The position numbers and the translations under genes are program-made. A DNA stretch of 64,000 bases from Histomonas meleagridis (Eukaryota > Parabasalia > Tritrichomonadida > Dientamoebidae): positions 248,001 through 312,000 of the forward strand of contig WSYJ01000151.1 in NCBI GenBank assembly GCA_020186115.1, read 5' to 3'. The notes beneath the pieces were generated by a model. It was not told where the DNA came from and did not search any database. It saw nothing but the letters and a program-made list of their open reading frames with translations. Each line of letters opens with the position of its first letter. Positions within the stretch are counted from its first letter, which is position 1. Below are positions 16,977-58,166 of the stretch, piece after piece.

Positions 16977-18147
16977 ATGCAAAAGACGAATCAAAAGTTT
17001 GACCACTGGGAAATGCTAACATCATTTAAGCAAATAATTTTTAATTTAAACAAAGAAAATATTACACAATCGGTTAAATCAATAATTAAAAATTTTGATG
17101 AAAATTATCCAATATCTTTTAATATAATTATCTGCCGAATGATATATATAGCGCTTGGAATAAAAATGAATGATTTTGAATTATTTTTGAATTTTATGCA
17201 AGAAATTGAAACATTTGAAGATGATAACAAAACAAATTCCAGAATTTTAGATGTTTTCGCATGCTTTCTAAACAAATTAGTTCCCACTCCAAAATCATAT
17301 TATCTTAATTGTTTGATTGAGCAGAAAATCATTGATCCAAAAATCGTCAAAAGCACACATAACTTATTTTTTTTACATTATATGTCTAATGACCAAAGAA
17401 ATCGATTTATAAATGATGAAAATCCAAAGCGACTAAATTATGAAGAACTTTCAAAGAATGATTGGGAACTTCATAAGAAATATATTAAAGAAGGACATAA
17501 TCCAAATGAAATTGCAAAAATAATTCGAAATGATGAAATAGAAAAACTTCAAGAAGTGTCATCACAAACAAAATTTGATTTTAAGCAGATCATTGAACCA
17601 GCAAGTTATGAGAGATGTTCATTTGTTAATGGCTGGAATGTTACATTAATTGATTATGCAGCATTTTTTTTCTTCTGTTAAATGTTTTAAATATTTACTT
17701 ATGAATGGAGCAAATGTAGAAAACACAGGTAAATATGCTGTTGGAAGTGGGAATGAAGAAATTATTCATTTATGTGAACAAAATCATTCAACATTTGAAG
17801 GTGCATTTGAAGCAGCAATTAAATTTCATCGAAATAATATCTTTAAATATCTTTATGAAAATAAAATTAGTGAAATTGAGAAATTAGAAGAATTAGGAAT
17901 TAAATGTATTTCACATCATAATTATGAAATTTTTGAATTTTTGCAAAAGGAAGGTATGAAGATTGATGATGATATTATTAATGAATCAGCAATAATTGGA
18001 AATATATATCTCATTGAAGATTTTCTTCGAGAAAACAAAATTCCTAAAAAAATTTTAGCATTTTCTGCAATATCAGGAAATGTCGAACTTGTTAAATATA
18101 TTATAGAAAAAGATGAAATTAATATTAATACTAAAGTTATTTATTAA
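16977..18147 (+). pseudogene. DUF3447/ankyrin gene 1, one-base frameshift in a T run
   Basis: The reading starts at the ATG at 16977 with the N-terminal helical domain shared by this family (FKQIIFNLNKENI and following). From about 17440 comes the DUF3447 core: ELSKNDWELHKKYIKEG, NPNEIAKIIRNDEIEKL, ERCSF, LIDYAAFF, CFKYLLMNGA, GNEEIIHLCEQNHS, then ankyrin-like units to KIPKKILAFSAISGN. At 17664-17671 a run of eight T replaces the seven found in the copy at 20180, which breaks the frame; the second part (from about 17660) is intact in another frame. Because the only lesion is a homopolymer length, a sequencing error is as likely as a real mutation. The function of DUF3447 proteins is unknown; they are presumed protein-binding. 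The split ankyrin array follows directly. Confidence 0.7.
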
Positions 18148-19290
18148 TCACATTTTATATTAATTTTAATAATTTTGGGATATTTTAAAATAATTTTTAA
18201 AAATTATTTAAAATATTTAAAACACCACTTATGTTAGCATCAGAAAAAGGTAATTTTGAAGTAGTTAAATTACTTCTCGAGCAAAAAGGAATTGATATTA
18301 ATGCTAAAGGTATTTTTTTGTTTTATTTAATATTTATTTTAATAATTTTTTATTTCAAAATAATATTTGGAAATTTTATATTTTATTTGATACAGCACTC
18401 ATTAAAGCATCTGAACATGGTTATACAGAAATAGTCAAATTACTTCTTGAACAAGAAGGAATTGATATTAATGCTCAAAATATTTATTTGTATCATTCAA
18501 TTTTTGTGATAAAGATTTTATGTTATATTAAAATCATTGGAATTTTTACAAACTATTTTTAACAGCACTAATTTGTGCATCTTTAGAAAGCTATAAAGAA
18601 ATAGTTAAATTACTTCTTGAGCAAGAAGGAATTGATATTAATATCACAGATATTTATTTATAAGATTTTGTATATATTTTAAAATTTTGATATTTTAAAA
18701 TGATATTTGGAATTTATTTAATTTATTTAATACAGCACTTATGTTAGCATCTAGATTTGGTTACATAGAAATAGTTAAAATACTTCTTAAACAAGAAGGA
18801 ATTAATGTTAATAATAAAGATGATTAAATATTTAGTTTCATATTTGTTTTGATAATTTTATGAAATTTTAGGATATTATTTGGAAATTACTTAAAGAATT
18901 TAAATCAGCACTTATTTGGGCAACTAGAAATCGTAATACAGAAATAGTTAAATTACTTCTTGAGCAAGAAGGAATTGATATTAATATCACAGATATTTAT
19001 TTATAAGATTTTGTATATATTTTAAAATTTTGATATTTTAAAATGATATTTGGAATTTATTTAATTTATTTAATACAGCACTTATGTTGGCATCTAAAAA
19101 TGGTTACAAAGAAATAGCTGAACTACTTCTTGAACAAAAATGAAGTTAGTGCGTAAAATATATATTTGAATAATTTGATGTTTCAAAATCATATCTGAAT
19201 TTTTTTCATTATTTCGAAATTTACTTGCAGAATTAATAAACAGAAATAGTTAAATTACTTATTAGAAAGGATACGTTCCTTGATACCAAT
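18139..19290 (+). repeat. Split ankyrin array A1 (170-bp units)
   Basis: Ankyrin repeats starting at 18222, 18392, 18562, 18732, 18905 and 19075, that is spacings of 170, 170, 170, 173 and 170. Each holds an open 30-codon core (T-x-L-x-x-A-S to I-N-x-K-D) followed by an 80-83-nt AT-rich spacer with frequent stops, for example at 18662 and 18826. The spacer 3' end reads like TTTGGAAATTATTTAA before ACAGCACTT. About 147 bp (18598-18744) recur without visible change 343 bp downstream, so core and spacer are copied together. The last unit breaks off with a stop at about 19141 and then decays to a fragment near 19240. It continues the DUF3447 gene 1 upstream. Confidence 0.8.
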
Positions 19291-19456: not shown

Positions 19457-20652
19457 ATGAGGAAAGGTGAAGAAAATATGAAAAATAAACAATTTTACTG
19501 TGAATGGGAAATACTTTTATCCATTAAACAAATAATTTTTGATTTAAATAAAGGAAATATATTACAAGCATCAAAATTGGTTATTCGTAAAATTAGTGAA
19601 AAATGCTCATTAACTTTTAGTGTAGTGGTTGCTCATATGTTAAGCTCATTATTTATTGCAATAAATATTCTGATATAATTTTCAATTTTATTATAGAAAT
19701 TGAAACATTAGAGAAGGAGGATAATATTAAATTAAATATTCTAAATATATTTACCCAACATCTTCTTCACTATGAAATTGATGAATCATATTATCTTATA
19801 ATGAAACGATTTCACATCAATATTTATAACTAAAAATTACTAATATAAAAAATAATCCTCATTTTACATTCTACACATATGAAATAACACAAGATATGTT
19901 TTTATACAGTGGTGTCAAGCATTTTAAATATATAAAGCAAATTAAAAATAATTATGAAGAACTTTCAAAGAATGATTGGGAACTTCATAAGAAATATATT
20001 AAAGAAGGACATAATCCAAATGAAATTGCAAAAATAATTCGAAATGATGAAATAGAAAAACTTCAAGAAGTGTCATCACAAACAAAATTTGATTTTAATC
20101 AGATCATTGAACCATCAATTTATGAGAGATGTTCATTTGTTAATGGCTGGAATGTTACATTAATTGATTATGCAGCATTTTTTTCTTCTGTTAAATGTTT
20201 TAAATATTTACTTATGAATGGAGCAAATGTAGAAAACACAGGTAAATATGCTGTTGGAAGTGGGAATGAAGAAATTATTCATTTATGTGAACAAAATCAT
20301 TCAACATTTGAAGGTGCATTTGAAGCAGCAATTAAATTTCATCGAAATAATATCTTTATGAAAATAAAATTTGAGAATTTAGAAAAATTATTTAAAATGT
20401 TTGACACAGTAATCATTAAAGCATCTGAATGTGGTTATATAACGAAATAGCTAAATTACTTCTTGAACAAAAAGGAATTGATGTTAATGTTCAGGATATT
20501 TATTTGCTTTGTTTATATTTAATTTTAATAATTTAATATTTCTAAATAATATTTGGAAAATATTTAAAATATTTAAAACAGCACTTATTTACTCATCTCA
20601 AAATGGCCGTACAGAAATAGTTAAATTACTAAATGAAAAAGGGGCTAATTAA
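19457..20652 (+). pseudogene. DUF3447/ankyrin gene 2, decayed copy
   Basis: The N-terminal domain survives as a 73-codon frame (19457-19678) that ends in a stop. A degraded stretch follows, then a DUF3447 core (about 19950-20360) almost identical in bases to gene 1, with only a few differences seen over about 400 bp. After HRNNIF the sequence jumps straight into the end of a spacer (FENLEKLFKMFDT), so the C-terminal part of the domain was deleted. Two split ankyrin units follow at 20406 and 20578. The first has a two-base insertion near 20436 that causes a stop; the second runs in frame to LLNEKGAN and a natural-looking stop at 20650-20652. It is probably not functional, although its core looks recently converted or copied. 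Confidence 0.7.
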
Positions 20653-34494: not shown

Positions 34495-36474
34495 TTATTT
34501 TGTCATATTTAGACGCCAAAAGAAGTGGTGCAGAACATTATTTTCAGTTATTTTAATAAGTGTTGTTGCAAATGATTCGAATAATTTTCAAATTTTATAT
34601 AAAAATATCAAAAAATTTATATAAAAACGAAATTGAATAAATAAATATTTTTAAACTTATCATCAATTCCTTCTTGTTCAAGAAGTAATTTAACTGTTTT
34701 TGAATTACCATATTTAGATGCTATAATAAGTGCGCTATCAAATATTTTAAATAATTTCCGAATACTATATAGAAATATCAAAATATTAAAATAAGTTTTA
34801 AATAAAACATATAAATATTTTTAGCATTAATATCGATTCCTTCTTGTTCAAGAAGTAATTGAACTATTTCTATATGACCTTTAAATGATGCAAACATAAG
34901 TGCTGTTTCAAATATTTTAAATAATTTCCAAATATTATATTGAAATATTAAATTATTAAAACAAAATTTAAATAAAAAATATAAATGTTTCTTTCATTAA
35001 CATCAATTCTTTTTTGCTCTAGAAGTGATTGGACTGTTTTTATATCATTATTTACGATTAAAACCATAAATGCTGTATTAAACAATTTAAATAATTTCCA
35101 AATATTATCTTGAAATAAGAAGTTATTAAAAAAATTTTTAAACAAAATAAATAAATATTTTTAGCATTAATATCAATTCCTTCTTGTTCAAGAAGTAATT
35201 TAACTGTTCCTATTTTACCATTTCTAGATGCTAAAATAAGTGCTGTCTCAAATAATTTAAATAATTTTCAAATATTATTTTGAAATTTCAAATTGTTAAA
35301 ATAAATTTTAATTAAAACAAATAAATACCTTTCGTATTTATATCAATTCCTTCTTGTTCAAGAAGTAATTGAACAATTTTTATATAACCATTTATAGATG
35401 CATACATTAGCGCTGTATAAAATAATTTAAATAATTTCCAAATATTATTTTGAAACTTCAAAATATTAAAGTAAATTTTAAATAAAACAAATAAATATCT
35501 TTAGCATTAATATCAATTCCTTTACGCTCAAGAAGTAATTTAACGATTTCTCTTCGATCAAATGAAGATGCCCACAAAAATGCTGTTCGATACATTTTTA
35601 ATATTTTCCAAATATTATTTTGAAATCACAAATCATTAAAATAAATATTAATTAAAACAAATAAATATCTTTAGCATTAATATCAATTCCTTCTTGTTCA
35701 AGAAGTAATTTAACTATTTCTGTATAACCATTTATAGTTGCATACATTAGCGCTGTATAAAATAATTTAAATAATTTCCAAATATTATTTTGAAATATCA
35801 AATAATTAAAACAAAATTTATATAAAACAAATACATATCTTTCGTATTTATATCAATTTCATCTTGTTCAAGAAGTAATTTAACTGTTTTTATATGACCT
35901 TCTCTAGATGCTAACATAAGTGCTGTATAAAATAATTTAAATAATTTCCAAATATTATTTTGAAATATCAAATAATTAAAACAAAATTTAAATATAACAA
36001 ATAAATAACTTTCGTATATATATCAATTTCATCTTGTTCAAGAAGTAATTTAACTATTTCTGTTTTGCCACTTGAAGATGCTAAGTATAATGGAGTTTGA
36101 ATTTATTCAAACAATTACCAAATATTGCTTTAATATAATATTTTATTGAAATATACATAAAATAAACAAAAATGATATTTTTACTATTAATATTTCCCAC
36201 CTTATTAAGAAAGAATTTAAACACTTCAACATTATCACTTTGTGATGCTAATAAAAGTGCTGAATTAAAAATATTAATTAAATTCCAAATATTATTTTAA
36301 AATCCAATATCAGTATAATGAAAATTGAAAACTATAAACAAATATCTTTGGCATTAATATTAATTCCTTCTTGTTCGAGAAGAAGTTGGATAATTTTCAT
36401 ATATCCTTTTAATGATGCTATTAATAATGGTGTTCTAAATATTTGAAATGATTTTTAAATATTATTAATATATA
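34495..36474 (-). repeat. Split ankyrin array A3 (170-bp units, largest)
   Basis: Reading leftwards on the reverse strand, repeat starts (threonine or serine codon) fall at 36431, 36261, 36094, 35924, 35754, 35584, 35414, 35244, 35074, 34904, 34735 and 34564: spacings are 170 except 167, 169 and 171. The first eleven cores are free of stops; ten have 30 codons, and the one at 36261 has 29, which accounts for the spacing of 167. The 169 spacing arises inside a spacer. The last unit is diverged and ends with a stop at 34495. Spacers share a 5' part like ATTTATTTGTTTTATTTAA and a 3' part like TTTGGAAATTATTTAA. The array follows the DUF3447 gene at 36475-37779 with no other promoter visible, so it is probably the 3' part of that gene. 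Confidence 0.85.
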
Positions 36475-37779
36475 TCATAATATTATAACAAACTCGAAAA
36501 CATTATAATAATCATCTCTTTCATTAATATCAATTCCTTTTTGTTGTAATACAAATTGAACAAGTTCGATATTTCCTGATTCTGTTGCATATAATAAAAT
36601 TTTTTTAGGAATTTCATAATTTTGAAGAAAATATTCAACAAGATATAAATTACCAATTTTTGCTGATACATTAATTATATATTCATCAAACTGAATTTCT
36701 TTTTCTAATAATGAAAAAATTTCATAATTACCTTTGTTAATGCAATAATAAATTAATTCTTGTAACTTTACTTCATATAGTGTTTGCGTATTGTTTACAT
36801 AATACCCAAATTTTTGGAATGGAATTTGTTTTGTATTTACATATGTTGTTGCTTGTTGATTTTTATCTAATTTTTCGATTTTATTTTCAAAAAGATATTT
36901 AAAGATATCATTTCGATGAAATTCAATTGCTGTTTCATATGCATCTTCAAATGTTGAATGATTTTGTTCACATAAATGAATAATTTCTTCATTTCCACCT
37001 GCAACTGCATATTTACCTGTGTTTTCTACACTTGCTCCATTCATAAGTAAATATTTAAAACATTTAACAGAAGAAAAAAATGCTGCATAATCAATTAATG
37101 AAACATTTTCTTTATTAATGAATGAACATCTTTCATAAAGTGATGGTTCAATTTTCTGGTTAAAATCAAAATTTTCTTGTGATGAAACTTCTTGAAGTTT
37201 TTCTATTTCATCATTTCGAATTATTTTTGCAAGTTCATTTGGATTTACTCCTTCTACAATTAATTTTTTGTGAAGCTCCCAATCATTCTTAGAAAGTTCA
37301 TTATAATTTTTTAAAAATGTATCTTCAATTATATCATTTTTATATTTTATTTTGTTTTCTAATTTTGTTTTATAGTGTGCAAAATATTTAGTTGTAAATT
37401 TTTTTGTAATATTTGAATCAACTAAATTTTTTTCGATCATTTTCTCAATAACATAATATGTTTCTTGTGTATCAAATTCTGATATATAATTAATTAAAAT
37501 TTCATTAATTGTTGTTTTGTTATTATTATTAATTTCATCTTCTTTTGCTTGAATTGTGTGTAAGTAATTAAAATATGTTTCTATTGTTTCTCTTCGAGTT
37601 AAAAATGCAGAATAAACCAGTATGATTAAACAATTATTAAATGTATAACGAAAATTTTTATCAAATAAAAGAATTGTTTGTGCAACAGTGAAATCAAAAT
37701 TATTATCGCTTAAACTAAAAACCAGTTGTTCAAGAGAATTTGGTTTTAAATAACAAACCGATTGATTGTTTTCATTCAT
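36475..37779 (-). CDS. DUF3447/ankyrin gene 3
   Basis: A 434-residue reading from the ATG at 37779 (MNENNQSVCYL). The N-terminal helical domain (LEQLVFSLSDNNFDFTVAQ and following) is about 165 residues. The DUF3447 core follows (ELSKNDWELHKKLIVEG, NPNELAKIIRNDEIEKL, ERCSFINKENVSLIDYAAFF, CFKYLLMNGA, GNEEIIHLCEQNHS), and then ankyrin-like units ending GIDINERDD. The frame stops inside the first spacer of array A3, so the stop is a stop only if the spacer stays in the mRNA. The frame upstream of the ATG crosses the initiator at 37814-37819, which is why the longer start is rejected. The molecular role is unknown; ankyrin arrays normally bind proteins. Confidence 0.75.
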   Translation of the reverse strand: MNENNQSVCYLKPNSLEQLVFSLSDNNFDFTVAQTILLFDKNFRYTFNNCLIILVYSAFLTRRETIETYFNYLHTIQAKEDEINNNNKTTINEILINYISEFDTQETYYVIEKMIEKNLVDSNITKKFTTKYFAHYKTKLENKIKYKNDIIEDTFLKNYNELSKNDWELHKKLIVEGVNPNELAKIIRNDEIEKLQEVSSQENFDFNQKIEPSLYERCSFINKENVSLIDYAAFFSSVKCFKYLLMNGASVENTGKYAVAGGNEEIIHLCEQNHSTFEDAYETAIEFHRNDIFKYLFENKIEKLDKNQQATTYVNTKQIPFQKFGYYVNNTQTLYEVKLQELIYYCINKGNYEIFSLLEKEIQFDEYIINVSAKIGNLYLVEYFLQNYEIPKKILLYATESGNIELVQFVLQQKGIDINERDDYYNVFEFVIIL

Positions 37780-39135: not shown

Positions 39136-40485
39136 ATGAATAGCAGCAATCCCGATGGCGCTAATTCCAAATGTTATTCCATAGAGATAATGTCCAAACT
39201 TGAACGCACGATTTTTAATTTAACCCAAGATAATCTTGAAAATGCAATCGACATAGTAATAGAACTATTTGATATAAATTTCCCATATACATACAATTTA
39301 TTCATTAGCAATTTAATTTATTTCGCATTTTATTCAAAAATAGAAGTGAGTGATTTGTATTTAAGTTATTTAGAAAGAATACAAAAGAAAGAAGAAGAAA
39401 TTGACTCAAAAAATTTAAATATCATTAAAATTTTTTGTGAGTATATAAGTAGAATCAATTCACAAGAATCAAATTATTTAATTGAACAAATGATTGAACG
39501 AAATTTAATCAATGCAAGTTTTACCAAAAACATTTCCACCCCGTATTTTTATCATTATAAAACAGAAAATGAAATTTTTGCAAAATCTGCTCATATAATG
39601 AGTCAAAATCTTAATTTTTTTAAAAATTATAAAGTTTTATCAAAGAATGATTTTGAGCTTCATAAGAAATATATTAAAGAAGGACATAATCCAAATGAAA
39701 TTGCAAAAATAATTCGAAATGATGAAATCGAAAAACTTCAAGAAGTGTCATCACAAGAAAATTTTGATTTTAATCAAATATTTGAACCGTCAATTTATGA
39801 GAGATGTTCATTTGTTAATGACTGGGGTGTTTCATTAATTGATTATGCAGCATTTTTTGGATCAGTTCAATGTTTTAAATATTTACTTATGAATGGAGCA
39901 AAAGGAAGTAATACAGGAAAATATGCAGTTGCAGGTGGAAATGAAGAAATTATTCATTTATGTGAACAAAATCATTCATCATTTGAAGGTGCATATGAAG
40001 CAGCAATTAAATTTCATCGAAATGATATCTTTAAATATATATATGAAAATAATTTAGAAACCATGTATCAATATCCACCAAGGTTTGGAGATCAATATCC
40101 ACTAAAGTTTGAAGATCAATATCCACAAACGCCTGAATCATCCGAATCTTTAAGCAGTTTTTCATATTTATTTAGAAAAATGAAACAAAAGGATATTAAT
40201 GATTTGGGAGACATATGTATCAATAACGGAAATTCTGAAATTTTTTTATATTTACTTGGAAAAGGATTAAAAATTAAAGAATCCACAATCAATGAAGCAG
40301 CAAAAATTGGTAATTTATATCTTGTTAAACATTTTCTCCTAAATAATTCAATTCCAAATAACATTTTAAAATTTGCTTTGAAATCAGGAAATATTGAACT
40401 TGTTAAATATGTTTTGGAACAAGGAGTTGATCTTAATACTAGAAATATTTGGTCATTTTATTTAAAGTTTATTTCTATTATTTAA
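39136..40485 (+). CDS. DUF3447/ankyrin gene 4
   Basis: A 449-residue reading from ATG 39136. The N-terminal helical domain (LERTIFNLTQDNLENAIDIVIELFD) is followed by the DUF3447 core with the family motifs (ELHKKYIKEG, NPNEIAKIIRNDEIEKL, ERCSFVNDWGVSLIDYAAFF, CFKYLLMNGA, GNEEIIHLCEQNHS). A small in-frame tandem of QYPPRFGD, QYPLKFED and QYPQTPES interrupts it at about 40066-40140, and ankyrin-like units run to LEQGVDLNTRN. The frame then ends inside the first spacer of array A4. This copy has no visible frameshift. Its core bases remain very close to genes 1-3 while both ends have diverged. Confidence 0.78.
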   Translation: MNSSNPDGANSKCYSIEIMSKLERTIFNLTQDNLENAIDIVIELFDINFPYTYNLFISNLIYFAFYSKIEVSDLYLSYLERIQKKEEEIDSKNLNIIKIFCEYISRINSQESNYLIEQMIERNLINASFTKNISTPYFYHYKTENEIFAKSAHIMSQNLNFFKNYKVLSKNDFELHKKYIKEGHNPNEIAKIIRNDEIEKLQEVSSQENFDFNQIFEPSIYERCSFVNDWGVSLIDYAAFFGSVQCFKYLLMNGAKGSNTGKYAVAGGNEEIIHLCEQNHSSFEGAYEAAIKFHRNDIFKYIYENNLETMYQYPPRFGDQYPLKFEDQYPQTPESSESLSSFSYLFRKMKQKDINDLGDICINNGNSEIFLYLLGKGLKIKESTINEAAKIGNLYLVKHFLLNNSIPNNILKFALKSGNIELVKYVLEQGVDLNTRNIWSFYLKFISII

Positions 40486-41296
40486 AGTTTCAATATAATA
40501 TATGGAAATTATTTAAAATATTTAATACATTTCTTATGTGTGCATCTAAAAATGGTTATGAGGATATTGTTAAATTACTACTTGATCTAAAAATATTTAA
40601 TATTAATGATCAAAATATTAATTTGTTTTATTTAAAACATGTTTTATTAATTTTATGTTTCAAAATAAGATTTGGAAATTATTTAAATTATTTAAAACAG
40701 CACTTATTTTAGCATCTGAATATGGTCATACAGAAATAGTTAAATTACTTCTTGAACAAAAAGGAATTGATATTAATGCTAAAGATATTTATTTATTTGA
40801 TATTATGTTTGTTTTAATGACCTCGTGTTTCGATATAAAATTTGGAAATTATTTAAATTATTTTGGACAGCACTTATATGTGCATCTGAAAATGGTCATA
40901 CAGAAATAGTTAAACTACTTCTTGAACAAGAAGGAATTGATATTAATGCTAAAGATATTTATTTGTTTTATTTGATATTTATTTTAATAATTTTATATTT
41001 CAAAATAATATTTGGAAATTATTTAAATTATTTAATACAGCACTTATGATTGCATCTTTAAAAGGTGATATAAAAATAGTTAAATTACTTCTTGAACACA
41101 AAGAAATTGATATTAATGCAAAAGATATTTGTTTGTTTTATTTAATATTTATTTTAATAATATAAAATTTCAAAATAATATTTGGAATTTATTTCAAACA
41201 TTTCAAACAATACTTTCGCGTGTAGAGCAAATTTTACATTCAAAATGTTTTAAAAAAATATTCAACATGCTTCACGAAAAAGGTGCAAAATTGTAA
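40486..41296 (+). repeat. Split ankyrin array A4 (exact 170-bp units, intact end)
   Basis: Repeat starts at 40531, 40701, 40871, 41041 and 41211, exactly 170 bp apart each time. The four full cores are open. Spacers are 80 nt from the codon after INAK to the next threonine codon. The final unit (41211) has no spacer after it and reads in frame to MLHEKGAKL and a stop at 41294-41296, a typical ankyrin-protein C-terminus. This makes it the cleanest example of the split layout and it directly follows DUF3447 gene 4. Confidence 0.85.
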
Positions 41297-47829: not shown

Positions 47830-47899
47830 ATTGTTAAATAATAATAAAATGTTATTATGTTTTGATTTATGTTGAAATAATAATATTCTTTACGAAATA

Positions 47900-48190
47900 T
47901 TTTATGTTGCGAAAAGACATAAATTCCTTCAATGCAATTGTAGTTTCGGAATTTTATTAACAAAAAAACAATTTTTCTAGCAAATGATGAAAATGGGAAT
48001 AAAATTTTATGTTGAGAAAAGACATAAATTCCTTCAATGCAATTGTAGTTTTGGAATTTTATTAATAAAAAAACAATTTTTCTAGCAAATGATGAAAATG
48101 GGAATAAAATTTTATGTTGAGAAAAGATATAAATTCCTTCAGTGCAATTGTAGTTTTGGAATTTTATAAACAAAAAAACAATTTTTCTAA
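47900..48190. repeat. 105-bp minisatellite, about 2.7 copies
   Basis: Units start at 47906, 48011 and 48116 (GTTGAGAAAAGACATAAATT and similar), 105 bp apart, and differ at only a few bases. The period is a multiple of three, so a reverse-strand frame stays open through it (35-residue repeat), but nothing suggests that it is translated. It lies just past the FANCD2-like stop codon. Confidence 0.85.
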
Positions 48191-50567: not shown

Positions 50568-51349
50568 TCATAATAATACTGGTGGTGTCGATGCTCCATA
50601 TAATTTGTTTTCAACGTCCATGTTTTGAATATTTTTATGGAAAACTTGCGTTTGTAATTCAATAAATACTTTGTACGTCACAAATGAGTCTGAGCCTGCT
50701 TGATGTTCTTTGCCAACACGTTCAACTGAATATTGATCCGCAATGCCTTGTAAACCATTCGCAATATTAGGAAAACATGACGTATAATATTTAATATCAT
50801 AAAAATGTGGAAAGTAAATGTGAAGCATTTTGAAAAAACTTTGAGTTGTCGCTCGGGAGTGGTGAACTTGTAAGTGCTTTAAGAAGATATCCAAAATCTG
50901 AAATACTATGAAATGTAATCCACGTGATTTCATTGTTCATAACAAGACCACTCGTAAGAACAAAACGTCCAAAATCATAAACATCAATACCTTCTTCATT
51001 AAATTTGGAAAAATCAATACCTGATTGTTGTAATAATGTAATGGCACGTCCAAAATGTGGATCTTTTTCAATATTAAATTTAAAGTTAAATTGCCACGTA
51101 CAAACTGGACTTGGAACTTCTCCTTTAGAATTACCTAACGTGATCCCAATTTGAATGATTTTTTAAGATATCAACATTACATCGCATTGATTGATACTCA
51201 AGTTCTTCGGTGAATTTAAAACAACCTGATGGTTTAGCTACAACACCTGGAAATTCGGTATCCATCCCAATAAATGGATAATCTTGAATTAAATCACTGA
51301 TAATTTTCATTTCTTCTTCTAAATTATTTGCCCATACTTCTCGAATCAT
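50568..51349 (-). pseudogene. CNOT7: CAF1/POP2 deadenylase, frameshifted copy
   Basis: This is the left-arm copy of the gene at 57131-57910. It starts [15 protein letters not shown] and keeps GMDTEFPG, but an extra A in a run near 51162 shifts the frame after NVDILK, and an extra T near 50846 shifts it again before FFKML. The three pieces together cover the whole protein. There is also a Ser to Phe change after GCFK. Both lesions are one-base insertions, one of them in a homopolymer, so it may be a damaged copy or an assembly artefact. Confidence 0.75.
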
Positions 51350-51388
51350 TTTTTTGTGTAAATAAAAGTGGAGGACGTTAAAATTCAA

Positions 51389-51701
51389 CTCAAAGCAGTT
51401 CTTTTGTTTACCCCGATAAATTCTTAAAAGAATACTATTAATTATCTAAGAAAAATTTTATTTGTTAATTTAAAGATAATTTTTTCAGATTTACTCAGCA
51501 AATTTATAAAATTAGTTCATATATTTATTATCTTAAAATTATTAATTAATTATCAGCTGCCAATTTTTATTAATATGAAAGCAAATAAAAAATAAATTTA
51601 AATGTAATGTTGACATTTCGAAATGATGAATATTTAGACAATTATATTTTAGAACATAATTTTTGATTATGTAGGATAATAATTAATTTTAGATAATGAA
51701 A
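51389..51701. other. Spacer between CAF1 and tRNA-Pro in the left arm
   Basis: AT-rich and repeated in reverse complement at 56779-57130. It should hold the CAF1 promoter. No gene seen. Confidence 0.4.
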
Positions 51702-51773
51702 GGGTGATTGGTCTAGGGGAATGATTCTCGCTTTGGGTGCGAGAGGTCTCGGGTTCGATTCCCGAATCGCCCC
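51702..51773 (+). tRNA. tRNA-Pro (UGG anticodon)
   Basis: A 72-nt cloverleaf without intron. The acceptor stem is GGGTGAT with ATCGCCC, then a D-arm with box A-like TGGTCTAGGGG, an anticodon stem CTCGC/GCGAG around the loop TTTGGGT (anticodon TGG), and a T-arm with GGTTCGATTCC. The discriminator base is C. It differs from the other two copies by G for T in the D-loop. It lies about 40 bp before the ATG of the ARM gene. Confidence 0.93.
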
Positions 51774-51815
51774 TAAATTTTTGTTTTTTTTCACCTTCAG
51801 CCAAAGGAAGTTCAA

Positions 51816-53088
51816 ATGGACATTCGAAACAATGAAAGAACAAAAAATCGTAAAAAAGATCAAAAACTTATTCCAATGTATTAAACTACACAGTGTTGCT
51901 ACCAATAGCTCTAGCAGATCAAAAAGATTCTTTAGAATCTCTTAAGAGAATTTATCATATTTACAAACATCTCAGGAATCCGAATTTAACCAATTTTGTT
52001 TTCATTTTCCATATATGGATTTTTTTTTTTTTTTCATTTCTCACATAAATTCAGAATTGGGTCAAATTGCTTTTGGGTGTTTTTCATGTGCACTTTACTC
52101 CAGTGTTAAAAAGCCCAATTTTTCCACTCCGGAGAACATCCAGTTTTTTATTTCTTTGTTTCAAAGCAATAATTCTTCGTTGATATCGTCTTCTCTTTCT
52201 GTATTATACAATATTTGTGCTATCAATGAAGGAAGCCGCAAAAGAAATCCCATTTATTATCTTATTGACAATGGAATAATATCAATTCTCAAAACTCTTC
52301 CACAATCTGTTCAAATGATACAATTCATTGAACTCTTAAGCACCATCCAAAGTCCATTTATACCCGATTTATGTTTACTCATCATTAATTATTTGAATTC
52401 TGATGATGTTGAATTTCTTTATCACGCAATGATTGCTGTTTATAACATCTTCAAAACATGCGTCACGAATGTGAAAGAAATCAAAGAAATATTTTGGCCA
52501 ATTTTTACGAATAATATTATACGTTATTTTTACGTTAAAAAAAACAGATTTTATATTAAATTCTTTCGAGCATTAAATTGTTTTGATGGACTTCCTTATG
52601 AATATGGATCAACAATTCTTGAAATCATTTTTGCTTCTAAACCAAAACGTAACACTAAAAGAGATAAATTGGTTGGCGTCGCAATGTCATTATTTTTATT
52701 TAATAATGAAAATTGGGCACCATTTTTATCCGAAAAATTTGTTTTTACTTTCTTTGCTCCGAATGAAAAGAAATCGATATACGAAAAATCGTCGTTTAAA
52801 GTACAAAATTTTATCATTGAGGGTTTGGTTCATTATTTTAAGTTTGAGGATGGTAAAGATGTGTGTTATGGTATAGTCGGCGTGCTAATAGATGCTTTAG
52901 AACGTGATGGATTAGAATTACTTTGTTTAAGTAAATTGATTTCGATTTTGGTAATGAATGAGAAAAACACAATTTTGCTGAATTTGTTCACAGAAAAAAT
53001 TCAAATTTTTAATGATTTATGTTTAAGTGAAAATGATAAAATACAAGAAATGGCTTTAAAAATAATAGAATGGATTGAACAAAGTTAA
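51816..53088 (+). CDS. ARM-repeat protein, importin-alpha-like, frame broken near the start
   Basis: The product begins [16 protein letters not shown] (basic, as in an importin-beta-binding segment) judging from the matching copy at 56126-56665, and continues through ARM-type helical repeats to [14 protein letters not shown]. In this copy two A runs are one base longer (near 51842 and 51855) and one T is lost near 51957, so the first 66 codons are out of frame with the rest. The uninterrupted frame starts at 52015 (357 codons). The right-arm copy has an intact 5' part but is cut at the repeat boundary, so this is the only full-length copy. The lesions may be sequence errors. Confidence 0.65.
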
Positions 53089-53897: not shown

Positions 53898-55052
53898 ATG
53901 GAATTAAAACATGTTGCCAAGAATCAATGTATAGAGAATAAACAAATAAATGATGATATTATAAATTTGATCAAACTAAAAAAAATTATTTTCGATTTAA
54001 CAAATGAAAATTTTGATACATCAGTTAGACAAACATTAAAACTATTGGATTTAAATTTTCCAAATTCTATTAATTTTATCATTGCTAATTTAATTTATTA
54101 TGCGTTTTATTCACAAAAGAAAGATGTTTATCTTTATTTAAATTATTTAAAAACAATTCAAATCAAAGAAGAAGAAATAAATAGTAATAATAAAATTACG
54201 TTAAAGATAGTTGAAATTTTTATTAATAAATTACAAATTGGATCACAGGAGTCATATTATTTTATTGACAAAATGATTAAATTAAAACTGATAAGCGAAG
54301 ATATTGTTAATAGTATTCAATCTAATTATTTTATACATTATCAAACAAAAGAAAATAAAAAGATTAAATATAATGCATTTGAAAATAACATTGAAAAAAA
54401 ATTCAGAGAAAATTATTTAGAATTATCAAAGAATAATTGGGAACTTCATAAAAAATTAATTGAAGAAGGAGTAAATCCAAATAAAATTGCAAAAATAATT
54501 CGAAATGATGAAATAGAAAAACTTCAAGAAATATCATCACAAACAAACTTTGATTATAACCAAACAATTGAACCATCATTTTATGAAAGATGTTCATTCA
54601 TTAATAAAGAAAATGTTTCATTAATTGATTATGCAGCATTTTTTGGATCAGTTAAATGTTTTAAATATTTACTTACGAATGGTGCAAATGTAAAAAACAC
54701 AGGCAAATATGCTGTTGCAAGTGGAAATCTTGAAATTATTCATTTATGCGAACAAAATCATTCATCATTTGTAGATGCATATGAAACAGCAATTGAATTT
54801 CATCGAAATGATATTTTTTATTATCTTTATGAAAATAAATATCAAAATATATATAAACATAGTCAAAAGTCACCTCCAAGATCAGAAGATATTAATCCAC
54901 TTTTCTTTATAGATTGTGGCACTGAAACATTAACAGAATCTGAAAAAAGGCAAAAGAGCATTACTAATTTTGTATACTTTTGTATTATGAGTGGGAATTT
55001 TGAAATTTTATTATTTTTAGAGAAAGAAGGAATGAATATCTTATTAATATAG
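53898..55052 (+). CDS. DUF3447/ankyrin gene 5 (frameshift near its end)
   Basis: A 384-residue frame from ATG 53898. The N-terminal helical domain (LKKIIFDLTNENFDTSVRQTLKLLD) is followed by the DUF3447 core (ELSKNNWELHKKLIEEG, NPNKIAKIIRNDEIEKL, ERCSFINKENVSLIDYAAFF, CFKYLLTNGA, HLCEQNHS) and a poorly conserved linker. Near 55043 a small deletion shifts the frame. The next frame continues directly with LINIAAKIGNLYLVKYFLQ to INEKDIC and a stop at 55216 inside the first spacer of array A5. The gene lies between the arms of the inverted repeat and is preceded by a tRNA-Pro. Whether the break is real needs resequencing. Confidence 0.7.
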   Translation: MELKHVAKNQCIENKQINDDIINLIKLKKIIFDLTNENFDTSVRQTLKLLDLNFPNSINFIIANLIYYAFYSQKKDVYLYLNYLKTIQIKEEEINSNNKITLKIVEIFINKLQIGSQESYYFIDKMIKLKLISEDIVNSIQSNYFIHYQTKENKKIKYNAFENNIEKKFRENYLELSKNNWELHKKLIEEGVNPNKIAKIIRNDEIEKLQEISSQTNFDYNQTIEPSFYERCSFINKENVSLIDYAAFFGSVKCFKYLLTNGANVKNTGKYAVASGNLEIIHLCEQNHSSFVDAYETAIEFHRNDIFYYLYENKYQNIYKHSQKSPPRSEDINPLFFIDCGTETLTESEKRQKSITNFVYFCIMSGNFEILLFLEKEGMNILLI

Positions 55053-56029
55053 CAGCAAAAATTGGTAATTTATATCTTGTCAAATATTTTCTTCAAAATT
55101 ATCAAATTTCAAATAAAGTTTTGGTTTTTTCATCTGAATCAGGAAATATCGAACTTGTGAAATATATTCTTGAGCAAGAAGGAACAAATATTAATGAAAA
55201 AGATATTTGTTTTTAAGAAATTATGTCTATATTAATAATTTATTATATTAAAATAATATTTGGAAAATGCTAAAAATATTTAAAACAGCACTTATAAAGG
55301 CATCAGAAAATGGATATATAGAAATAGTGGAATTACTTCTTAAACAAAAGGGAATTGATATTAATGCTCATGATATTAATATTTTATAATAATATTCAAA
55401 AATTATTCAATTAATTTAATACCGCACTTAAGTCAGCAGTTGAAAATGGTCACATAGAAATAGTTAAATTACTTCTTGGGCAAAATGAAATTGATGTTAA
55501 TACAAAAAATATGTATTTATCTTATTCAAAATATATTTTATTAATTTTATATTTCAAAATGATATTTGGAAACTATTTAAAATATTTAATACTTTACTCA
55601 TTGAAGCAGCTAAAAAAGGGAACATAGAAATATCAAAATTACTTCTTACACAAGGAAAAATTGATATAAATGCCAAAAATATTTAATTGTTTTATTTCAA
55701 ATCTATTTGAATAATTTCTTGTTTCAAAGAAATAAATGGGAAATATTTGAATTGTTTTGGACAGCACTTATGTATGCAAGTGAAAAAGGTCATACAGAAT
55801 TAGTTAAATTTCTTCTTGAACAAGAAGGAATCAATATTAATGCTAAAAATTTATATATTTTATATTTAATATTTGTCTTGATAATTTGATATTTTAAAAT
55901 ATTATATGGAAATAATTTAAAATATTTGAAACAGCACTCATAATTGCATTTAAGAATGCTCAGGCACAAATAATTAAATTAATTCATGACTTCATCCAAA
56001 AGTCAAAAGATATAGATGATATCATCTAA
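55053..56029 (+). repeat. Split ankyrin array A5 (170-bp units, one short spacer)
   Basis: After the end of the DUF3447 domain, repeat starts fall at 55285, 55421, 55591, 55761 and 55931. The spacings are 136, 170, 170 and 170. In the 136-bp case the ankyrin core is complete and only the spacer has shrunk, from 80 to 46 nt, keeping both ends. The last unit has no spacer and reads in frame to DIDDII and a stop at 56027-56029. One spacer (55681) has a stop six bases after the INAK codons, which limits where a junction could lie. Confidence 0.82.
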
Positions 56030-56125
56030 AAATATTTTTTCGAATGTATTTTTTTTTTAAATGATTTGTCTAGACTATTCTCCCACGTAACAAACTTTAA
56101 AATACCAAAAAACGTTTTTTGTTTG

Positions 56126-56665
56126 TGGACTTTGGATGGTGCTTAAGAGTTCAATGAATTGTATCATTTGAACAGATTGTGGAAGAGTTTTGAGAATTGA
56201 TATTATTCCATTGTCAATAAGATAATAAATGGGATTTCTTTTGCGGCTTCCTTCATTGATAGCACAAATATTGTATAATACAGAAAGAGAAGACGATATC
56301 AACGAAGAATTATTGCTTTGAAACAAAGAAATAAAAAACTGGATGTTCTCCGGAGTGGAAAAATTGGGCTTTTTAACACTGGAGTAAAGTGCACATGAAA
56401 AACACCCAAAAGCAATTTGACCCAATTCTGAATTTATGTGAGAAATGGAATATTGGAAAAAATCCATATATGGAAAATGAAAACAAAATTGGTTAAATTC
56501 GGATTCCTGAGATGTTTGTAAATAATGATAAATTCTCTTAAGAGATTCTAAAGAATCTTTTTGATCTGCTAGAGCTATTGGTAGCAACACTGTGTAGTTT
56601 AATACATTGGAATAAGTTTTTGATCTTTTTACGATTTTTGTTCTTTCATTGTTTCGAATGTCCAT
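56126..56665 (-). pseudogene. ARM-repeat gene, 3'-truncated copy
   Basis: An intact 5' part from ATG 56665 ([16 protein letters not shown]) through ELLSTIQSP. At 56126 the repeat boundary cuts the gene, and the frame runs 17 more codons into unrelated sequence to a stop at 56075. It shows the probable correct reading of the frameshifted copy at 51816. Confidence 0.8.
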
Positions 56666-56706
56666 TTGAACTTCCTTTGGGTGAAGGTGAAAAAAACAAA
56701 AATTTA

Positions 56707-56778
56707 GGGGCGATTCGGGAATCGAACCCGAGACCTCTCGCACCCAAAGCGAGAATCATTCCACTAGACCAATCACCC
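56707..56778 (-). tRNA. tRNA-Pro (UGG anticodon), third copy
   Basis: Same cloverleaf as the other two, with the GTGG D-loop version. It sits 41 bp before the ATG of the truncated ARM copy, on the same strand. Confidence 0.92.
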
Positions 56779-57130
56779 TTTCATTATCTAAAATTAATTA
56801 TTATCCTACATAATCAAAATTATTTTCTAAAATATAATTGTCTAAATATTCATCATTTCGAAATGTCAACATTACATTTAAATTTATTTTTTATTTGCTT
56901 TCATATTAATAAAAATTGGCAGCTGATAATTAATTAATAATTTTAAGATAATAAATATATGAACTAATTTTATAAATTTGCTGAGTAAATCTGAAAAAAT
57001 TATCTTTAAATTAACAAATAAAATTTTTCTTAGATAATTAATAGTATTCTTTTAAGAATTTATCGGGGGTAAACAAAAGAACTGCTTTGAGTTGAATTTT
57101 AACGTCCTCCACTTTTATTTACACAAAAAA
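56779..57130. other. Spacer between tRNA-Pro and CAF1 in the right arm
   Basis: Mirror image of 51389-51701. AT-rich, and includes the CAF1 promoter. No gene seen. Confidence 0.4.
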
Positions 57131-57910
57131 ATGATTCGAGAAGTATGGGCAAATAATTTAGAAGAAGAAATGAAAATTATCAGTGATTTAATTCAAGATT
57201 ATCCATTTATTGGGATGGATACCGAATTTCCAGGTGTTGTAGCTAAACCATCAGGTTGTTTTAAATCTACCGAAGAACTTGAGTATCAATCAATGCGATG
57301 TAATGTTGATATCTTAAAAATCATTCAAATTGGGATCACGTTAGGTAATTCTAAAGGAGAAGTTCCAAGTCCAGTTTGTACGTGGCAATTTAACTTTAAA
57401 TTTAATATTGAAAAAGATCCACATTTTGGACGTGCCATTACATTATTACAACAATCAGGTATTGATTTTTCCAAATTTAATGAAGAAGGTATTGATGTTT
57501 ATGATTTTGGACGTTTTGTTCTTACGAGTGGTCTTGTTATGAACAATGAAATCACGTGGATTACATTTCATAGTATTTCAGATTTTGGATATCTTCTTAA
57601 AGCACTTACAAGTTCACCACTCCCGAGCGACAACCAAAGTTTTTTCAAAATGCTTCACATTTACTTTCCACATTTTTATGATATTAAATATTATACGTCA
57701 TGTTTTCCTAATATTGCGAATGGTTTACAAGGCATTGCGGATCAATATTCAGTTGAACGTGTTGGCAAAGAACATCAAGCAGGCTCAGACTCATTTGTGA
57801 CGTACAAAGTATTTATTGAATTACAAACGCAAGTTTTCCATAAAAATATTCAAAACATGGACGTTGAAAACAAATTATATGGAGCATCGACACCACCAGT
57901 ATTATTATGA
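57131..57910 (+). CDS. CNOT7: CAF1/POP2 deadenylase of the CCR4-NOT complex
   Basis: A 259-residue protein of the DEDD nuclease family, intact in this arm. Motifs: GMDTEFPG (first Asp and Glu), [28 protein letters not shown] (Asp), YDIKYY and AGSDSFVT (last Asp). The ISDFGYLLK segment stands for the SGYDFGYL of animal CAF1. The enzyme shortens poly(A) tails in the cytoplasm as the catalytic partner of NOT1. The start is the ATG at 57131; the frame is open 13 codons upstream but lacks an earlier ATG. A frameshifted copy lies at 50568-51349. Confidence 0.9.
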   Translation: MIREVWANNLEEEMKIISDLIQDYPFIGMDTEFPGVVAKPSGCFKSTEELEYQSMRCNVDILKIIQIGITLGNSKGEVPSPVCTWQFNFKFNIEKDPHFGRAITLLQQSGIDFSKFNEEGIDVYDFGRFVLTSGLVMNNEITWITFHSISDFGYLLKALTSSPLPSDNQSFFKMLHIYFPHFYDIKYYTSCFPNIANGLQGIADQYSVERVGKEHQAGSDSFVTYKVFIELQTQVFHKNIQNMDVENKLYGASTPPVLL

Positions 57911-58094
57911 ACATGAAATGTAAAATATAAATTAATAAATAGAAGTATTGAAATATATTTTTTTTTGTTTAATCATTTGTCACAACAAAAAATTTAATAT
58001 TTCGATATATTATGAAGTTAAATGCAGTAATAAAGATAAGTATTTAAATGTTTTTCTGCCCGCTTTGATATTAAAAAATAAATCAAAAAAATTC

Positions 58095-58166
58095 TTCCGA
58101 TACGGGGAGTCGAACCCCGCTCCCGTGGATGAAAACCACATATCCTAACCGATGAACGATATCGGA
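58095..58166 (-). tRNA. tRNA-Glu (UUC anticodon)
   Basis: A 72-nt cloverleaf on the reverse strand. The acceptor stem is TCCGATA with TATCGGA, the anticodon loop TTTTCAT gives TTC, and the T-arm has GGGGTTCGACTCCCC. The discriminator base is A. No intron. Confidence 0.93.

Follow-up and report, generated by a model that had tools for sequence, protein, structure and literature searches.

Ankyrin repeat genes of the poultry parasite Histomonas meleagridis contain hairpin loops that are laid out in the DNA as single codons, each followed by an insert of 17 nucleotides (nt). We describe this organization in a 64,000-nt stretch of the genome (the window; contig C86, 248001-312000), where a reverse-strand array of 170-bp units follows an open reading frame (ORF) bearing DUF3447, and in related arrays of the same genome. 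As read from the DNA, a large ankyrin family, often carrying DUF3447, shares this arrangement, and with the inserts left out most unit junctions would read as the canonical ankyrin hairpin D-x-x-G-x-T. Judged by this predicted coding pattern, the arrays make sense as genes only if every insert is skipped. The anatomy, with its single codons, its 17-nt inserts and roughly one thousand hairpins of a single exact form, is readable from the DNA and needs explaining.

Anatomy of the interrupted repeat

The reverse-strand array was detected in the window as a 170-bp tandem repeat at 34555-36382 (10.8 copies; Tandem Repeats Finder), with 8 of 11 anchor-to-anchor steps measuring 170 nt and with cores that translate without stops from 36594 to 34736. 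The original prediction had described this 170-bp array, the 102 and 68 nt that compose its unit, the stop-free cores, the loss of frame at every unit and the attachment to DUF3447, and these features stand. It had further placed a single 68-nt intervening sequence at one site in each unit; instead, we find four 17-nt inserts, which follow four successive loop codons. Each unit thus comprises 34 codons plus four times 17 nt, or 170 nt, with its loop written D-17-x-17-x-17-G-17-x-T, and the unit minus its inserts is a canonical 34-codon repeat with the ending INAK-D-x-x-G-x-TAL. The five loop codons, one per 20 nt, occupy unit positions 88-90 (D1), 108-110 (x2), 128-130 (x3), 148-150 (G4) and 168-170 (x5). 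The hairpin and the two-helix repeat of about 33 residues that characterize ankyrin are present in the loop codons and cores; Pfam Ank matches were obtained on the DUF3447 ORFs preceding the arrays, and the ankyrin assignment of the protein with inserts out is that of loops and cores read separately.

This ladder rule was recognized because divergent ankyrin genes showed 17-nt splits. At locus L056 a canonical hairpin, KDENG/NTPLH, is split by exactly 17 nt, a second hairpin is split by 17 nt as well, and a third is split by three 17-nt pieces with codons between them. When the ladder was held fixed and counted backwards from the next repeat, the window array (Table 1) showed 60 loop codons free of stops and a Gly codon at G4 in 9 of its 12 junctions; all 12 have Lys or Arg before D1 and Thr or Ser after x5. 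The loops so read are DRDKR, DNWGN, NYIGQ, VKDGY, DKDGY, DNVGR, DKEGY, GKEEE, NKLGN, NKNGE, NKDGD and NRDEA.

A larger sample comprised the window and 20 of about 40 arrays fetched with their flanks, in which 262 unit-to-unit junctions were measured (loci L001-L030 overlap L031-L050; uncounted). Its 168 distinct junctions of the 170 class have no stop at any of the five loop codons. Position D1 is D in 116, N in 39 and G in 9 (one of these in 164); x2 is chiefly K (74), N (39), E (17) or D (17); x3 is chiefly Y (57), D (53), G (16) or N (10); and G4 is G in 147, E in 14, K in 6 and V in 1. Five of the 20 possible phases are free of stops (0, 3, 13, 16 and 17), and phase 0 is the only one of them in which a pair of highly variable codons stands ahead of a fixed codon. 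In a per-column map of changes, columns 108, 110 and 128-130 vary at 2.5 to 4.7 times expectation, and column 148 is nearly frozen (1 change versus 23.8 expected). The D-x-x-G-x sense codons in 168 of 168 junctions, together with this pattern of change, are the reason for resolving the 68 nt into four 17-nt inserts; cutting out the whole block would lose the codons with the clearest sign of coding (D or N, variable, variable, Gly). Insert columns 118 (10 changes versus 3.2) and 162 (16 versus 3.9) also lie 3-4 times above expectation, which the codon ladder leaves unaccounted for. Lengths had also been considered as multiples of 17 or as 8 + 20n, and both were set aside as consequences of a codon plus 17 nt.

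Units of other lengths were used for comparison. Among 29 junctions outside the 170 class, chosen by eye and in several cases sharing ancestry with it, the Gly codon precedes x5 by exactly 17 nt in 19, versus 0-2 at each of 22 other distances (8 to 30); the anchors of L073 are approximate, and L066-1 was not located by anchor in this test. Excess lengths measured from anchor to anchor (294 rows, including some false anchors) gave 198 at 68, 25 at 51, 9 at 48, 2 at 17, 1 at 34 and 10 at 0, with 13, 5 and 3 at 69, 70 and 71. These lengths, like the 168-, 29- and 12-junction tests, are independent of the parser, which itself favours 17 nt. Of the inserts parsed, 780 of 804 are 17 nt long; 188 of 212 distinct loops hold 17-nt inserts exclusively, and the canonical seven residues between Asn and Thr are found in 195 of 212. 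The 212 rows exclude duplicates, core-end stops or odd residues and the L068 junction, and some parses, such as those at 36433 and 35926, depart from the fixed ladder. Among the 24 exceptions, 17 show a stretch of at least four identical letters in the insert of deviating length; stretches of this kind are frequent, and the evidence is accordingly weak.

Hairpins free of inserts, also present in this genome, resemble the laddered loops in their residues. A search pattern that required D1, G4 and the last T of x3, leaving x2 and the rest of x3 free, retrieved 10 places, of which 8 read AKDKNG, AKDNDG, AKDKYG, AKDKDG or similar forms and two read KDLRG and AKNFAG.

Selection on cores and inserts

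Each of 193 distinct units was paired with the unit closest to it (142 pairs), and spacer substitution rates served as the yardstick. These units were drawn from 316 nhmmer matches as those nearly full length without a core indel, and 163 remain when spacer indels are also barred; since the units compared are related, the counts are not independent. Six hypervariable codons aside, the core frame has nonsynonymous changes at 0.26 and synonymous changes at 0.99 of expectation, and its stop gains number 3 where 49 are expected. The other two core frames show no such pattern, and spacer omega (the ratio of nonsynonymous to synonymous change) lies between 0.99 and 1.03 whichever frame is read. When rates are scaled to the insert columns alone (163 units, 123 pairs), nonsynonymous change in the conserved core codons stands at 0.20 and synonymous change at 1.30 of expectation, with 1.0 stop gains versus 43.8. 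Insert columns themselves change at about three quarters of the core synonymous rate, and their length holds near 17. Protein-level selection on the cores, which had been supposed earlier, is evident in these figures, and the comparison of dN/dS and rates proposed at that time separates a selected core from a spacer with omega near 1.

Unit codons 4, 5, 8, 9, 11 and 12 have omega near 1 and change at about twice the expected rate. Set amid conserved residues, these hypervariable core codons and the loop codons x2, x3 and x5 look like a diversifying binding surface.

Variation in insert number and possible origin

One to four loop codons (rarely more) per hairpin carry a 17-nt insert after them, and neighbouring units differ by whole inserts while their cores remain intact. 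Units of 153 bp lack the insert after D1 (L066, L069, L070) or that between x2 and x3 (L047), and the number of inserts per hairpin in L064, L065 and L067 is three or four, with a single instance of six (this instance, L047 and L066 were judged by eye). Identity among inserts 1, 2 and 4 of the same loop is 69-75%, and insert 3 matches these three at 52-58%; shuffled pairs reach 45%. Copying of 20-nt steps, each a codon plus an insert, would be the simplest origin: a 17-nt insert may first have arisen behind the hairpin Gly, followed by copying of such steps. A scan for frame breaks in the loci read recognized no inserts outside ankyrins; it made no use of homology and so proves nothing.

Distribution in the window and the genome

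The other window arrays (Table 1) contain 18 repeat starts. The ladder of four inserts accounts for 13 of them as it stands and for three more (18222, 18905, 55421) if an added codon or a lower insert number is allowed; two (20406, 55115) lie off it. Across the genome searched (43.28 Mb, 121 contigs) related arrays are widespread, with at least 165 matches, and the exact junction form consisting of the last insert and ACAGCACTT occurs in 558 + 534 = 1,092 copies, versus 0 for the reversed control; these counts argue that the array is not a product of chance. With three or four inserts per hairpin, 1,092 copies of one exact form imply that the genome probably contains several thousand 17-nt inserts. 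Unit spacing is 170 in 220 steps, other values including 150, 153, 167, 171, 172 and 173, and spacings that differ modulo 3 adjoin within single arrays.

The published virulent-strain assembly (43.4 Mb, 187 contigs, 28.66% G+C) is described as built from Nanopore and Illumina reads (PMC8529796), a mixture that makes it possible that one-base homopolymer differences inside repeats are errors. Locus L043 (C72:128500-138400), with about 40 units, has many one-base differences in A runs of both cores and inserts, possibly uncorrected long-read errors. In the window, a DUF3447 gene at 16977-18147 is present as two overlapping ORFs that meet at a poly-T run, representing either a pseudogene or a homopolymer error of the assembly.

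Other features of the window include an apparent inverted duplication (50568-53088 and 56075-58166) in which pieces of two genes are repeated, the duplicated ORF pairs being 57131-57910 with 50568-50933 and 52015-53088 with 56075-56665. Transfer RNA genes of this region are at 51702, 53714, 56707 and 58095. A 105-bp tandem repeat (47899-48189; 2.8 copies, 96% matches) is located just past an ORF of 1,181 amino acids.

Table 1. Ankyrin arrays of the window, with one unit resolved into codons and inserts
Feature	Position	Strand	Remarks
N-terminal ORF, uninterrupted, DUF3447 and ankyrin	36475..37779	-	3' end enters first insert of the array gene
Laddered ankyrin array	34495..36603	-	12 junctions, D1-17-x2-17-x3-17-G4-17-x5; 12/12 fit the fixed ladder
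TAA closing the putative last exon of array 34495..36603	34497-34495	-	Core frame
Example unit, 30 contiguous codons, T6 to D1	35667..35756	-	D1 is GAT, 35669-35667
Example unit, insert 1, 17 nt	35650..35666	-	Next codon x2, AAT, 35649-35647
Example unit, insert 2, 17 nt	35630..35646	-	Next codon x3, GTG, 35629-35627
Example unit, insert 3, 17 nt	35610..35626	-	Next codon G4, GGA, 35609-35607
Example unit, insert 4, 17 nt	35590..35606	-	Next codon x5, CGA, 35589-35587; next T6 at 35586
Second laddered array	18049..19244	+	One additional loop codon in the junctions before 18222 and 18905; unit at 19075 meets stops
Short array	20406..20650	+	Junction before 20578 fits ladder, then stop after KLLNEKGAN; 20406 does not fit
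Laddered array behind DUF3447 ORF 39136-40485	40360..41209	+	Junctions before 40527, 40697, 40867 and 41037 fit
Laddered array behind DUF3447 ORF 53898-55052	55115..56069	+	Two inserts before 55421; four before 55285, 55591, 55761 and 55931

Signals of splicing, folding and hopping

Components of a spliceosome are encoded in this genome. A U2 RNA with GUAGUA scores over the cut-off, a U6 candidate with ACAGAGA lies 0.3 bits under it, and Prp8 exceeds its cut-off, with domain IV inside an open frame of 2,333 amino acids. No Rfam match to U1 was found, a weak negative, as the model matches below cut-off in 9 of 14 control genomes. The insert ends have preferences of their own: in 112 inserts from divergent genes the first base is a purine in 86%, position 14 is A in 75% and the last base is T in 96%, the compiled logo being approximate because a few parses are ambiguous.

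Signals expected of trichomonad introns had been noted as missing from the array, and in the larger sample they are absent or at control level. GTATGT occurs in 0 of 200 spacers, and the 3' intron motif of Trichomonas vaginalis, ACTAACACACAG, is found 3 times in 43 Mb (2 for the reversed control), though U2 and Prp8 look canonical. A single 68-nt intron with canonical ends was rejected since a frame-restoring GT..AG pair is available in just 65 of 262 junctions, 14 of them ending before x5, and in none of the remaining 197. Other candidates fared similarly: the AG of ACAG as a 3' site is missing where the codon is TCA or CCA (12 of 233) and also breaks the frame; CAAAATAATATTTG, weighed as a branch site, consists of the last letters of insert 3 and the G that opens the Gly codon; and reading TGA as a sense codon conflicts with its terminating 2 of 20 window ORFs.

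Structured excision was likewise discarded, as no shared fold was found in an alifold alignment of the 168 distinct junctions (consensus energy -0.14 kcal/mol), which also lacks the end-to-end pairing of euglenozoan-type introns. Bypass elements are marked by matching take-off and landing codons, a rule described as relaxed in the mitochondrial case (PMC5009743); here 9 of 780 inserts end in a triplet identical to the take-off codon, agreement at two of three letters is near chance (131 versus 116.9 shuffled), and a stop triplet directly follows the take-off codon in 1 of 780. Internal eliminated sequences (IESs) of the ciliate type are marked by a constant TA at both ends; the ends of the present inserts vary, and insert-flank pairs were inspected by eye, uncounted.

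Explanations weighed

A near-constant length is also a feature of the tiny introns of Stentor and mikrocytids. We hold RNA-level removal of ultra-short, non-GT-AG introns to be the most likely explanation, with about an even chance of being correct. The inserts would be taken out singly, leaving exons down to one codon; recognition would rely mainly on length and A/T-rich composition, aided by weak end preferences (purine first, ATTT last), and the agent could be a modified spliceosome or some nuclease-ligase. Whether by removal or by skipping, the responsible step may act on thousands of 17-nt elements that are recognized by their length and not by splice-site sequence, joining exons of one codon each; this would be a new class of intervening sequence, possibly handled on the ribosome, and we give it somewhat less than an even chance.

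Several observations count against the interpretation of the inserts as introns between selected codons. GT..AG ends occur in 1 of 112 divergent inserts, and no CTAAC was found among 200 spacers despite the GUAGUA of U2; neither mark of a U2-type intron is displayed. One insert of 12 nt was found, and another, in L037, appears shortened by eye (excess 60). We know of no precedent for 3-nt exons between introns. Stops interrupt the core in 6 of 220 units, and 15 of 248 have a core indel. When the comparison is confined to the 27 closest pairs (no more than 2 differences), the conserved codons show 15 nonsynonymous changes and 1 synonymous (127.0 and 14.9 expected), a ratio that gives no purifying signal and no synonymous excess.

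The last two points, with the frame-shifted DUF3447 ORF at 17.66 kb, are those expected if nothing is removed now, the arrays being unexpressed or decaying and their coding pattern inherited from a working past. Part of the family may indeed be dead, given the units with core stops or indels. As an account of the whole family, decay seems unlikely, though not negligibly so: against it stand the scarcity of core stop gains over the 142 pairs and the 70 pairs with at most 6 differences, in which nonsynonymous changes are at 0.10 and synonymous at 0.34 of expectation with 0 stop gains versus 24.7, a signal that grows with distance. Even if the arrays are dead today, their inserts must once have been skipped. 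Skipping could instead be translational, with the inserts kept in the mRNA and the ribosome jumping 17 nt after each loop codon. A fixed step suits a near-constant length with free sequence, and inserts placed between whole codons without conserved splice sites are what hopping would produce; the chance-level codon matches, the near absence of stops after take-off, the lack of a consensus fold and the need for four successive hops make us regard this as improbable, though with decay it is one of the two serious rivals.

Three remaining explanations we consider very improbable. Conventional spliceosomal introns (GT..CTAAC..AG), one per unit, are favoured by Prp8, U2 and the near-threshold U6 and failed on the sequence signals described above. 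Should the spacer instead be translated as an inter-repeat linker, with a -1 frameshift per unit, one would anticipate the open next-core frame seen in 118 of 176 distinct spacers (shuffles 18.7) and the shortage of stop gains in that frame (24 versus 73.7). The missing stops lie mostly in columns 135-149 (15 versus 51.2), reaching the Gly codon; spacer lengths take all three residues modulo 3, mixed within arrays; TAA TAA precedes the core in L064, L065 and L067; and spacer omega is near 1 in every frame. Elimination of 17-bp elements from DNA in some nucleus or stage, as with ciliate IESs, would account for elements that are uniform, short and AT-rich, whereas their end dinucleotides vary and the sequenced DNA retains them. 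To our knowledge H. meleagridis does not eliminate DNA, which also counts against this explanation.

Comparison with known systems

Our search of the open-licence PMC literature found no report of such inserts. The genome paper for the virulent strain gives 573 introns, at most one per gene, predicted with AUGUSTUS, and the word ankyrin is missing from its main text (PMC8529796). Gene finders that expect ordinary introns would probably miss or fragment the genes described here. If removal occurs in RNA, exon size would extend down to one codon and the GT-AG rule would be broken despite a canonical U2; if it is ribosomal, this would be the first nuclear bypass system, as far as known.

Bypass elements of T4 gene 60 and Magnusiomyces mitochondrial DNA are likewise frame-breaking blocks in coding sequence (PMC5009743); the inserts of H. 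meleagridis differ in being nuclear, eukaryotic and 17 nt long. Non-canonical introns of diplonemids (PMC12621601) and euglenids (PMC4770533) similarly lack GT-AG ends in lineages with a conserved spliceosome, but are reported to pair end to end, whereas the present inserts have no consensus pairing. In the related parabasalid T. vaginalis, type B introns are 23-25 nt and T-rich; its 63 GT/AG introns have a branch site fused with the 3' site (PMC12316389), motifs that are absent or at control level in H. meleagridis. The tiny introns of Stentor coeruleus (15-16 nt) are alike in length, A/U richness and conserved U2 and U6 boxes, yet are mostly GU..AG with the branch A mostly at position 10 (PMC9505925), while 1 of 112 inserts here has GT..AG ends. 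Closest in size are the spliceosomal introns of mikrocytids, at 16-17 nt of nearly the same, almost invariant length and documented with transcript data, 224 of them in 179 genes of M. mackini; all are described as having highly conserved sequences (PMC10245619), whereas the inserts here are diverse. Unlike those introns, the H. meleagridis inserts were seen in ankyrin hairpins only, as many as four or more in succession with single codons between them. It is on this anatomy that a claim to a categorically new arrangement rests; the mechanism may prove to be that of an extreme tiny intron.
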